This document shows, piece by piece, positions 26,768 to 36,536 of a stretch of 64,000 nucleotides of DNA (position 1 is its first letter; each line of letters starts with the position of its first letter). The position numbers and the translations under genes are program-made. Location of the stretch: contig NZ_CP128477.1 of assembly GCF_030369675.1 (NCBI RefSeq), positions 2,556,001 to 2,620,000 of the forward strand. Direction: 5' to 3'. This DNA is from Peteryoungia algae (lineage in GTDB: Bacteria; Pseudomonadota; Alphaproteobacteria; Rhizobiales; Rhizobiaceae). Under the pieces are notes generated by a model that made no database searches, was not told where the DNA came from, and saw only the letters and a program-made list of their open reading frames with translations.

Positions 26768-27577
26768 TCATGTTGCGACAAGAACTTCCACGCCACGGCG
26801 CTCGAATTCCTTGGCGACACGGTCCGGTATGCCGTCGTCTGTAATCAGGGACTGGATGACGTCCAGCGATCCGAGACGGGTGAACGACGACCGCCCGATC
26901 TTTGTTGAGTCCGCAACCAGATAGACATGGGCTGCCGCCTTGATCATCGCTTCCTTGAGCTGCAGATCGGCAAAGCTCGGATAGGTCAGCCCGGCCTCCA
27001 GATCGACGCCGGCCGTGGCGAGAAAAAGCTTCCCCGCGAAAATATTGCTGAAATACTCAACCGACTTGTCACCCGACAGGGACAGCGTCGGCGATTTGAA
27101 CTGGCCTCCCGGCATATGGACGGCGAAAGTCGGCACCGCCCCCAAGATGATCGCGATGTTGAGTGCATTGGTGATCAGGGTGAGGTTGCGGCGATTCGCC
27201 AGCCGCATGGCGATCTCGGTCGTGGTCGTGCCCGCGTCGAGGATCAGCGTCTCGCCATCCTTCACCAGACTGGCGGCCAGAGTGCCGATCTTGCGCTTCT
27301 TGTCCATGTTCTCCTGGTGATGCAGGGCCATGGTGCCCATCTGGGGCGCGGCGGAATTCAGATAGGCGCCACCATGCTCGCGCGTGATGAACCCTTCGTT
27401 TTCCAGCCGTTCGAGATCCTGACGGATCGTCGCCTCGGAGACGTGGAATGCAGTTGCCAGCTCGCGCACGCGCGCCGAGCCCTCTTCCTGCAACCATTCG
27501 AGGATACGCCGACGCCGTGGCTCGGACAGCAAGCCCACCATGGATTCGGAAGAATCGTTTTCTGTCTTCGCGTCCAT
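26768..27577 (-). CDS. DeoR family transcriptional regulator
   Basis: A 269-residue repressor. The DeoR helix-turn-helix is RRRRILEWLQEEGSARVREL, FHVSEATIRQDLERLENEGFITREHGGA. The effector domain has the DeoRC motifs ILDAGTTTTEIAMRL, LITNALNIA, LATAGVDLEAGLTY and VADSTKIGRSSF, which bind phosphorylated sugars. The start is uncertain: the ATG at 27577 is chosen, and a TTG 10 codons upstream is possible. It follows the importer permease on the same strand and likely represses the importer and the divergent kinase/transketolase operon. Confidence 0.92.
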   Translation of the reverse strand: MDAKTENDSSESMVGLLSEPRRRRILEWLQEEGSARVRELATAFHVSEATIRQDLERLENEGFITREHGGAYLNSAAPQMGTMALHHQENMDKKRKIGTLAASLVKDGETLILDAGTTTTEIAMRLANRRNLTLITNALNIAIILGAVPTFAVHMPGGQFKSPTLSLSGDKSVEYFSNIFAGKLFLATAGVDLEAGLTYPSFADLQLKEAMIKAAAHVYLVADSTKIGRSSFTRLGSLDVIQSLITDDGIPDRVAKEFERRGVEVLVAT

Positions 27578-27672
27578 GTCTCGACAAACCTCGAATTTCG
27601 CAAGCAAACAGCAGTGTTTCGATCTTAACCCACGGCTCCCTTACAACAAGTGCCCGTCAGTTGAAATACTCA

Positions 27673-28737
27673 TCACGCTTGGTTCTGCAGGACCACACGG
27701 GCCTGCAGCTTCTGCTGCACCTGATCGACCACGACGGCAGCGATGATCACGAGTCCCTTGATCACGGTCTGCCAGAAGGAGGAGACGCCCATCATGATCA
27801 GGCCATCGGCCAGGATACCGATCACGAATGCGCCGACGATCGTCCCGCCAATGCGACCGCGGCCACCGGACATGGAGGTTCCGCCGAGGACGGCCGCGGC
27901 AATCGCATTCAGTTCGAAGGTCTCGCCCGTCGCCGGATGGCTTGCCTGCAGCTGCGAGGCAATGATGAGGCCGACCAGAGCGGCACAGAAGCCGGAGAAC
28001 ATGTAGACGAAGAGCTTGATGCGATCGACATTGACGCCGGACAAGGCAGCCCCGCGCTCATTGCCACCAACCGCATAGATGTGACGACCCAGCGGCGTCC
28101 GTGTCGCGAGATAGGCGGCGGCGAGCGCAACGACCACCATGATCCAGACCGAGAGGGGGAAACCGAGCAAGCTCCCCGAGCCGATCAGCCTGAAGGTGTC
28201 GGAGCCATACTCGGCATTGCCGGCAAGGTTCGGGAACGTCCGGCCGTCGGAGAAAAGAAGGGCAGCACCTCGGGCAACATAGAGAATGCCGAGCGTCGCG
28301 ATGAAAGGCGCGACATTAAGCTTCGTGATCAGTAACCCGTTGATCAACCCGATCAGGATCCCGACGACAGCGACGACCAGGCAGATCTCGAGCGTGTTGA
28401 ACTGCAGGCTCCAGCCGATCTGCAGGTCAATGCCGTAAAGCACCAGCCAGCCAGCAACCATGGCGCACAGACCGACGATCGAGCCAACGGAGAGGTCTAT
28501 GCCGCCTGACACGATGACGAAGGTCATGCCGATGGCAAGCAGCGCATTCAGCGCCACATGCTTCGAAATGATCAGCATGTTCGCCCCCGTCAGAAAGTTT
28601 GGCGCAGCGACGGCGAAGAAGGCAAACACGAGAATCAGGGCGACGAAGGTGCGCATCTTCAGGAGAAGCAGCAGCATGGAGGTTTGCGAAGATGGACCGA
28701 CAGCCTTGCTGCCGTGGGCGGTGACGGAACTGCTCAT
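27673..28737 (-). CDS. Sugar ABC transporter permease (RbsC family)
   Basis: A 354-residue permease with about ten membrane segments, including [21 protein letters not shown] and NVAPFIATLGILYVARGAAL, the family fingerprint. It probably homodimerises, as this operon has only one permease gene. Start and stop of the ATPase overlap by 4 bases. Forms the membrane channel of the probable apiose importer. Confidence 0.94.
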   Translation of the reverse strand: MSSSVTAHGSKAVGPSSQTSMLLLLLKMRTFVALILVFAFFAVAAPNFLTGANMLIISKHVALNALLAIGMTFVIVSGGIDLSVGSIVGLCAMVAGWLVLYGIDLQIGWSLQFNTLEICLVVAVVGILIGLINGLLITKLNVAPFIATLGILYVARGAALLFSDGRTFPNLAGNAEYGSDTFRLIGSGSLLGFPLSVWIMVVVALAAAYLATRTPLGRHIYAVGGNERGAALSGVNVDRIKLFVYMFSGFCAALVGLIIASQLQASHPATGETFELNAIAAAVLGGTSMSGGRGRIGGTIVGAFVIGILADGLIMMGVSSFWQTVIKGLVIIAAVVVDQVQQKLQARVVLQNQA

Positions 28738-35046: not shown

Positions 35047-35051
35047 GCACG

Positions 35052-36536
35052 ATGGCGCAAGACAGGCCGCTCATCCTTGCCGTCGACCAGGGCACGACCA
35101 ACACCAAGGCCGTGCTCATCGATGCCTTGGGCAAGGTCGTTGCAAAGGCCTCGGCACCGCTCGCATCGAACTATCCGCGACCAGGCTGGGCCGAGCAGTC
35201 GGCCGATGCCATCTGGACGAGTGTCCAGTCCGTCATGGCCGACATCGTTGCGGGCAACCACGGCTCCATCGCCGGGATCGCCATCAGCAACCAGAGAGAG
35301 ACCCTTGTGGTCTGGGATTCCGAGACCGGCGAACCGCTCGCACCCGCCATTCTGTGGCAGTGTCGCCGGACTGCGGCCGCCTGCCAGGCTTTCATCGATA
35401 CCGGACATGATGCGACCGTCGTCGGCCTAACCGGTTTGTCGATCAACGCGCTCTTCCCGGCATCGAAGCTCGGCTGGGTGATGGAACACGTGGCGTCGGC
35501 GCGGGATCTCGCAAAACGCGGACGTCTGCGTGCCGGCACGGTGGACAGCTGGCTCCTGTTCAAGATGACGGGTGGAGCTGTCTTTGCAACCGACCATTCC
35601 AATGCCTCGCGCACCATGTTGTTCGACACGGCGAAACTGGAATGGAGCCCTGAACTCTGCACCCTCTTCGACGTCCCGGCCTCGGCGCTCCCGCGGGCCC
35701 TGCCCTCGAACAGTCGCTTCGGCCATACCGAGGCAGGGACAACTGCGCTGCCAGCAGGCACGCCGATCCTTGCCATGATGGGTGACAGCCACGCGGCTCT
35801 CTATGGCCACGGCGTCCGCGCCCCGGGCCTGGTCAAGGCGACCTTCGGCACAGGCTCGTCACTGATGACCCTGACTGACAGGCGTGTGTTGTCAGGGCAT
35901 GGTCTCTCGAGCACGATCGCCTGGTCGGATGGTTCCGGCGTCGCCTATGCTCTTGAGGGGAATATCACCGTTTCGGCACAGGCCATTGCCTTTGCCGCGA
36001 CCCTGCTGGGTCTCGACGGCCCGGCCGCCCTGTCCGATCTTGCGCAATCCGTCTCCGACAGTGGCAAGGTGGTTTTCGTCCCGGCACTTGCCGGTCTGGG
36101 TGCGCCACATTGGACGGACAATGCCACGGGCACGATTTCCGGGATGACCCATGCGACCATGCCGGCCCATGTCGCCCGCGCAACGATGGAGGCAGTCGCC
36201 CTTCAGATTGCCGACGTCTTCGAGGCCATGCAGCAGGATGTCGGGCTTGCTCTGTCCGGACTGATGGCGGATGGCGGTGCGTCGACCAATGATTTCCTCA
36301 TGCAGTTGCAGGCGGACATTCTGGACCGGCCGGTATTGCGCGGCGATCAGCCGGAAGTCGGCGCCATCGGTGCAGCGGCGATGGCCTTCCACTCATTGGG
36401 GATCAGCCCCCCAGAGCCTTCCCATGCTCGCCGGTTCGATCCCGGGACCATGCAGACCGAAGCGCGCGCCGACCTGCTGACGCGGTGGCGCGAGGCGATC
36501 ACACGCGTGAAGTCACCTGTTTCGAACGCCGTTTGA
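35052..36536 (+). CDS. FGGY family carbohydrate kinase (candidate D-apulose kinase)
   Basis: A 494-residue kinase with both FGGY lobes: LAVDQGTTNTKAVLID phosphate motif near the N-terminus, ISNQRETLVVWD, GTVDSWLLFKMTGG, GDSHAALYGHG, TFGTGSSLM and LMADGGASTNDFLMQLQADIL. It resembles glycerol/xylulose kinases in length and motifs. I start at ATG 35052; a GTG at 35043 overlapping the previous stop is possible. It would phosphorylate the ketose made by the TIM-barrel isomerase before transketolase cleavage. The last gene of the operon; a strong hairpin follows. Confidence 0.93.
   Translation: MAQDRPLILAVDQGTTNTKAVLIDALGKVVAKASAPLASNYPRPGWAEQSADAIWTSVQSVMADIVAGNHGSIAGIAISNQRETLVVWDSETGEPLAPAILWQCRRTAAACQAFIDTGHDATVVGLTGLSINALFPASKLGWVMEHVASARDLAKRGRLRAGTVDSWLLFKMTGGAVFATDHSNASRTMLFDTAKLEWSPELCTLFDVPASALPRALPSNSRFGHTEAGTTALPAGTPILAMMGDSHAALYGHGVRAPGLVKATFGTGSSLMTLTDRRVLSGHGLSSTIAWSDGSGVAYALEGNITVSAQAIAFAATLLGLDGPAALSDLAQSVSDSGKVVFVPALAGLGAPHWTDNATGTISGMTHATMPAHVARATMEAVALQIADVFEAMQQDVGLALSGLMADGGASTNDFLMQLQADILDRPVLRGDQPEVGAIGAAAMAFHSLGISPPEPSHARRFDPGTMQTEARADLLTRWREAITRVKSPVSNAV

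Follow-up and report, generated by a model that had tools for sequence, protein, structure and literature searches.

Which sugar does a nine-gene locus of the alphaproteobacterium Peteryoungia algae serve, and what does the lipoprotein of family DUF2291 encoded in its importer run contribute? We analyzed a stretch of 64,000 nucleotides (hereafter, the window; contig NZ_CP128477.1, positions 2,556,001 to 2,620,000), which is part of a single 4.40-Mb contig, and focused on the locus at window positions 26768-36536. Pfam and profile searches identified nine open reading frames there, each with the family expected from a first-pass annotation of this DNA, which had placed an isomerase, a split transketolase, and an FGGY kinase in one operon divergent from an importer and a DeoR gene. 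The genes form a minus-strand run of five (receptor, DUF2291, ATPase, permease, and DeoR) and a divergent plus-strand run of four (isomerase, transketolase N half, transketolase C half, and kinase), with a 350-base gap between the runs; four of the eight junctions are gene overlaps of 1–4 bases (Table 1). The earlier coordinates held for the nine genes, except that the TTG start of DeoR, which gives the longest possible frame, is perhaps too long, as the codon-usage score favors a start at 27577.

These nine genes very probably constitute an apiose locus: they are predicted to import D-apiose, a sugar of plant cell walls, likely degrade it via the transketolase route, and include DUF2291 as a likely importer accessory. 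Every catabolic part has a counterpart in D-apiose clusters (the isomerase in PDB 3ktc, and AplK, AptA, and AptB for the others), in line with the route that the first-pass annotation had assigned. Homology speaks strongly for the apiose reading, and the locus appears to be a further case of an already known pathway, which supports the first interpretation; fresh here are how closely DUF2291 is tied to a single importer branch and the apparent spread of the isomerase into marine genomes. Annotations such as “ribose importer and transketolase” thereby become a testable apiose pathway in rhizobia. Of 60 genomes in the genus, 8 carry the isomerase (the window’s genome included), and the locus is thus an accessory trait.

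The importer and its candidate ligand

The receptor, double ATPase, and permease, encoded in one run, constitute a CUT2 sugar importer. The receptor is 78% identical over 312 residues to RHE_PF00037 of Rhizobium etli (PDB 4ry0/5ibq), and we take 5ibq to be this protein with D-apiose. The R. etli locus holds OiaX, 3-oxo-isoapionate-4-phosphate decarboxylase (NCBIfam NF042437, 784 bits against a cut-off of 700), and its importer resembles that of the window in permease (70% identity), ATPase (59%), and DUF2291 (39%). The importer of the Escherichia coli SE15 apiose cluster is also related to that of the window (receptor, 48%; DUF2291, 30%; ATPase, 48%; permease, 59%). One importer type is common to two unrelated apiose routes, those of transketolase and OiaX, and D-apiose is the likely ligand of the window receptor, judging from these homologies.

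Because the PDB titles the R. etli receptor 4ry0 “ribose transporter”, ribose is possible as a second ligand, and the importer might carry both D-ribose and D-apiose, in which case the transport side would not be apiose-specific. In addition to this title, which names a ribose transporter solute-binding protein, the next best structure is a ribose-bound protein of Thermotoga maritima, and RbsB is the best NCBIfam model of the window receptor (174 bits). However, this score is far below the RbsB cut-off of 337, neither a ribokinase nor RbsD occurs among the nine genes, and the catabolic genes match apiose clusters. We regard such dual transport as unlikely and retain D-apiose as the likely ligand.

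DUF2291 and one importer branch

The DUF2291 protein scores over the cut-off of model PF10054, and its modelled structure is an OB-fold like TM0957 of T. maritima (PDB 2f4i). The first-pass annotation had described DUF2291 as having no known role. The family is indeed still poorly understood, but it is partly described: the T. maritima relative has been solved as an OB-fold, and an excerpt of PMC3599248 remarks on a “hypothetical gene” with which eryEFG begins. This hypothetical gene is likely DUF2291.

We surveyed 35 loci from 30 genomes, comprising 32 of the 33 DUF2291 places found in 398 genomes of the phylum (29 with a match; the window’s own excluded) and three of the 18 DUF2291 places from a search for relatives, taken by choice. 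At all 35, DUF2291 shared a run with the genes for receptor, ATPase, and permease. By gene content, 10 of these loci had a split transketolase, seven had OiaX, and five had the apiose-type order with neither in view. The order typical of erythritol loci (DUF2291, ATPase, permease, receptor) was found at 13; one of them (L148) has a gene that exceeds the cut-off of the D-erythrulose-4-phosphate isomerase model, and the erythritol label of the remaining 12 rests on order and neighbors.

In a search based on the ATPase alone (385 genomes; three candidates scored per genome, 30 of 54 places taken, and approximately 1.5 kb viewed on each side), DUF2291 was present at four of 30 loci, and these held the four closest ATPases (100% identity, which is the window itself, then 75, 55, and 48%); it was present at none of the remaining 26. 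One of the four (L169) was already in the DUF2291 survey. This search is a fairer test than the ATPase tree (a quick method, with 34 of 79 ATPases left after removal of near-copies at 80% identity), because the loci in the tree had been picked for DUF2291 or the isomerase, the window’s second ATPase excepted. DUF2291 tracks, and is co-inherited with, one importer ATPase clade that serves both apiose and erythritol loci, and it occurs with two anchor types, lipid or likely transmembrane.

The window protein probably serves the importer as an accessory subunit in the periplasm, and DUF2291 may be an overlooked importer part. As an OB-fold domain, it would probably be anchored to the inner membrane on its outer side, where it could aid docking of the loaded receptor on this permease branch, with the invariant R137-D138 loop as a candidate contact. 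This gives an uncharacterized family a concrete, testable role. Alternatively, DUF2291 could play no part in transport, being a mere passenger or some enzyme of the periplasm. Consistent with this, it diverges fastest in the importer run (64–70% identity in many Rhizobiaceae loci, against 85–92% for its importer neighbors), and the kinase diverges about as fast (66–71%). Against this, DUF2291 keeps to a single ATPase clade in the sets tested, in loci of the apiose and erythritol types alike and with either of the two anchor types, which renders the alternative doubtful.

Catabolic genes and spread of the isomerase

The window kinase, like AplK, scored below the GlpK cut-off (470 and 495 against 590 bits), and the genome’s own GlpK scored 689. 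A tree of 20 rows joined the window and AplK kinases (100/100) and kept them apart from GlpK, and a constraint placing the window kinase group with GlpK was rejected (approximately unbiased test, p-AU 0.0037), a value to be read as a guide only, since the two groups tested against GlpK were fixed after the first tree. From the 31 rows of that first tree, 11 (XylB, three actinobacterial and two marine kinases, L122, L127, L131, L142, and L148) were dropped, chiefly on account of long branches; they were chosen with the first tree already in view. The FGGY gene might instead encode a kinase for glycerol or dihydroxyacetone, salvaging the by-product of the transketolase, with a different kinase acting on apulose. 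Its best model and best PDB match are indeed glycerol kinase, and no Dak1 dihydroxyacetone kinase was found in the window’s genome, so that GlpK or the FGGY kinase would have to act on the predicted product dihydroxyacetone. However, the grouping with AplK, the rejected GlpK grouping, and a separate gene that passes the GlpK cut-off make a salvage kinase improbable, and an apulose kinase is preferred.

Both transketolase halves match the two-subunit AptA/AptB enzyme in pairwise comparison (44% and 42% identity). The genome’s other transketolase, in an open frame of 709 residues, shares only 35% identity with the window N half, indicating that the split transketolase is a separate gene pair.

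The isomerase is 60.2% identical over 319 residues to PDB 3ktc, which we take to be the D-apiose isomerase ApsI, and an 85-row alignment including both has 141 invariant positions. It does not cluster with an enzyme of another known sugar: the next best PDB matches are xylose isomerases, at 66 bits against 429. These comparisons with apiose enzymes, which the first-pass annotation had called for, agree across isomerase, kinase, and both transketolase halves. The nearest named relative of the isomerase (99% identical) comes from a metagenome-assembled genome of Rhizobium. Locus L149 encodes the 3ktc sequence itself (100% over 319 residues) beside an AplK-like kinase, split transketolase, permease, ATPase, DUF2291, and receptor; it is a relative’s locus that holds all eight non-regulatory parts of the window locus. 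Identities to the window are 69% (receptor), 60% (isomerase), 55% (permease), 50% (ATPase), 47% and 40% (transketolase halves), 43% (kinase), and 39% over only 98 residues (DUF2291).

The isomerase survey covered 80 loci, 22 with guanine–cytosine (GC) content under 0.40 and 58 non-marine. Eleven of the 58 were without some of transketolase N, transketolase C, and kinase; four of these are on short contigs (L023, L032, L036, and L051), and two more non-marine loci with parts missing are L008 and L048. At the remaining five, which are Rhizobiales loci (L007, L010, L014, L024, and L037), the isomerase stays beside the importer, and the kinase and both transketolase halves lie together elsewhere in the genome in all five cases, with 39–63% identity to those of the window.

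We propose that the receptor captures apiose and passes it to the permease, with the ATPase driving import. The isomerase would convert apiose to D-apulose, and the kinase would then yield apulose-4-phosphate. The two-part transketolase would move a two-carbon unit to glyceraldehyde-3-phosphate, yielding xylulose-5-phosphate and dihydroxyacetone. The reaction chemistry of this route reportedly goes back to Carter et al. 2018. DeoR would likely repress both runs; a consensus scan found no promoter-like site in the region between them. As for the oxidative route, the sole RuBisCO_large match in the window’s genome lies in a methylthioribose-kinase locus and gave no OiaX hit at E 1e-20.

The 22 low-GC, apparently marine loci (L053, L056, L057, L062, and L064–L081; GC 0.29–0.36) are labelled Pelagibacteraceae or (uncultured) Alphaproteobacteria, and their isomerases are 78–84% identical to that of the window. 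Names with AG- and AH- among them presumably mark ocean single cells. Two of the genome records total 1.1 and 1.3 Mb and are perhaps incomplete. Both transketolase halves and the kinase were matched in 19 of the 22 loci, and L057 has counterparts of all eight non-regulatory parts (receptor, 59%; permease, 56%; ATPase, 47%; DUF2291, 29%), with its kinase reading in two separate frames. Marine kinases placed in trees fell outside the AplK group, and a receptor of the window type was absent from 19 of the 22 loci; the sugar of the marine loci may therefore differ. A coastal Rhodobacteraceae strain grows on D-apiose via the oxidative route according to an excerpt of PMC11747546, the only one among the matches listed in a wider literature search that mentions apiose. 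No report of apiose use in SAR11 was found among the matches listed, the sole one for Pelagibacter being on methionine salvage. If the marine loci hold up, a land-plant-associated sugar would feed open-ocean bacteria, and if both the importer branch and the isomerase reach the sea, apiose or a look-alike sugar would be a marine nutrient.

Some results weigh against the readings given here. Besides the ribose title of 4ry0 and the lack of Dak1, the join of the window kinase with AplK had only 82/88 support in the 31-row tree, and a long branch parts the window’s isomerase group from 3ktc (drawn as 1.29 changes per column on either side of the root). No Pfam apiosidase was found in the window’s genome, so the strain would depend on apiose released by other organisms. 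At least 120 of 514 DUF2291 homologues have PF10054 as their sole domain, with no fusion among these, in a search limited to proteins of at most 1.75 times the query length. That the locus serves another pentose or tetrose using isomerase, FGGY kinase, and split transketolase would fit the long branch between the tight isomerase family of the surveyed loci and solved 3ktc, and the low-GC marine genomes that pair this isomerase with kinases outside the AplK group, mostly without this receptor type, but is very improbable, as receptor, kinase, both transketolase halves, and isomerase each independently point to apiose clusters.

Beyond the apiose reading, we put forward a broader proposal, for and against which we see even chances. 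In it, DUF2291 would be a fourth subunit, tethered to the membrane, of CUT2 importers that form a distinct branch and carry four-carbon-backbone sugars (branched apiose and erythritol); such importers have until now been regarded as having three parts. The branch would also extend, accompanied by the same isomerase, to streamlined alphaproteobacteria of the open ocean.

Neighboring genes and comparison with known systems

Table 1. Features of the candidate D-apiose locus (window coordinates)
Feature	Position	Strand	Basis
DeoR-family regulator, end of importer run	26768..27607	-	Pfam DeoRC 2e-45, HTH_DeoR
CUT2-type permease	27673..28737	-	BPD_transp_2 6e-45
Double ABC ATPase	28734..30263	-	ABC_tran, two stretches
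DUF2291 lipoprotein, lipobox LSGC	30260..30880	-	Pfam E 2e-46
Periplasmic sugar receptor, likely for D-apiose	30949..31890	-	Peripla_BP_4; 78% over 312 aa to RHE_PF00037
Divergent region, 350 bases	31891..32240	.	Likely holds both promoters and operator
TIM-barrel isomerase, xylose-isomerase-like, likely D-apiose to D-apulose	32241..33221	+	AP_endonuc_2; 60.2% over 319 aa to PDB 3ktc
Transketolase N half, AptA-like	33266..34087	+	Transketolase_N; 44% to E. coli SE15 AptA
Transketolase C half, AptB-like	34087..35046	+	Transket_pyr + Transketolase_C; 42% to AptB
FGGY kinase, likely apulose kinase, AplK-like	35043..36536	+	FGGY_N/C; 43% over 500 aa to AplK

The first-pass annotation had placed pectin genes nearby, and KduI (46480-47304), GH28 (53450-55024), and GH88 (55021-56154) are present; together with a short-chain dehydrogenase/reductase (SDR) and an ATP-binding cassette (ABC) importer, they make 46480-56154 a likely pectin oligosaccharide locus. 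A second CUT2 importer (YtfQ/YtfR-like) at 12134-18826 is accompanied by a sugar-acid dehydratase and dehydrogenases, likely a sugar-acid pathway. The genes at 6911-10823 encode a PdxA-like protein, an iron alcohol dehydrogenase, and a kinase of the four-carbon-acid type (SBD_N/NBD_C), presumably a tetronate pathway. Transposase remains, which we take to be IS30-like from their translation, occupy two overlapping frames at 38566-39982, with Pfam HTH_38 in the larger and no match in the smaller. Approximately 110–115 kb past the window in the same genome, positions 5880-11343 of L197 hold an unusual salvage set adjoining a CUT2 importer: a methylthioribose kinase over cut-off, a second split transketolase-like pair, and a RuBisCO-like protein.

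Among known systems, the locus is akin to the transketolase clusters of Pectobacterium and E. coli, sharing the importer with DUF2291, the AplK-like kinase, and the split transketolase; its isomerase is as in the 3ktc-bearing L149. For seven of the nine genes of the locus, E. coli SE15 encodes a counterpart in its cluster (receptor, DUF2291, ATPase, permease, AplK, AptA, and AptB); the cluster differs in layout and carries an annotated “sugar-binding transcriptional regulator”, presumably of the SorC type, instead of DeoR. The E. coli cluster also has two SDR (oxidoreductase) genes and no isomerase, unlike the window. According to an excerpt of PMC13001218, E. coli strains with the cluster grow on D-apiose, as do strains of E. 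fergusonii and P. carotovorum, apsI is also found in P. carotovorum, and MetaCyc PWY-8089 is named for D-apiose transketolase clusters (apsI, aplK, aptA, and aptB) in Pectobacterium and E. coli ST131/STc14.

The OiaX locus on R. etli p42f shares the importer order, DUF2291 included, but its catabolic genes are those of the OiaX route rather than isomerase and transketolase. In T. maritima, TM0957, for which a literature search found no function, adjoins the ribose-binding protein TM0958 and is only 16–18% identical to the window DUF2291. The EryEFG erythritol loci of the Rhizobium leguminosarum type have an importer of the same ATPase clade with DUF2291 (receptor identity of 48% in L148), whereas DUF2291 comes first and the receptor last, the anchor is without the lipobox cysteine, and the enzymes are different.

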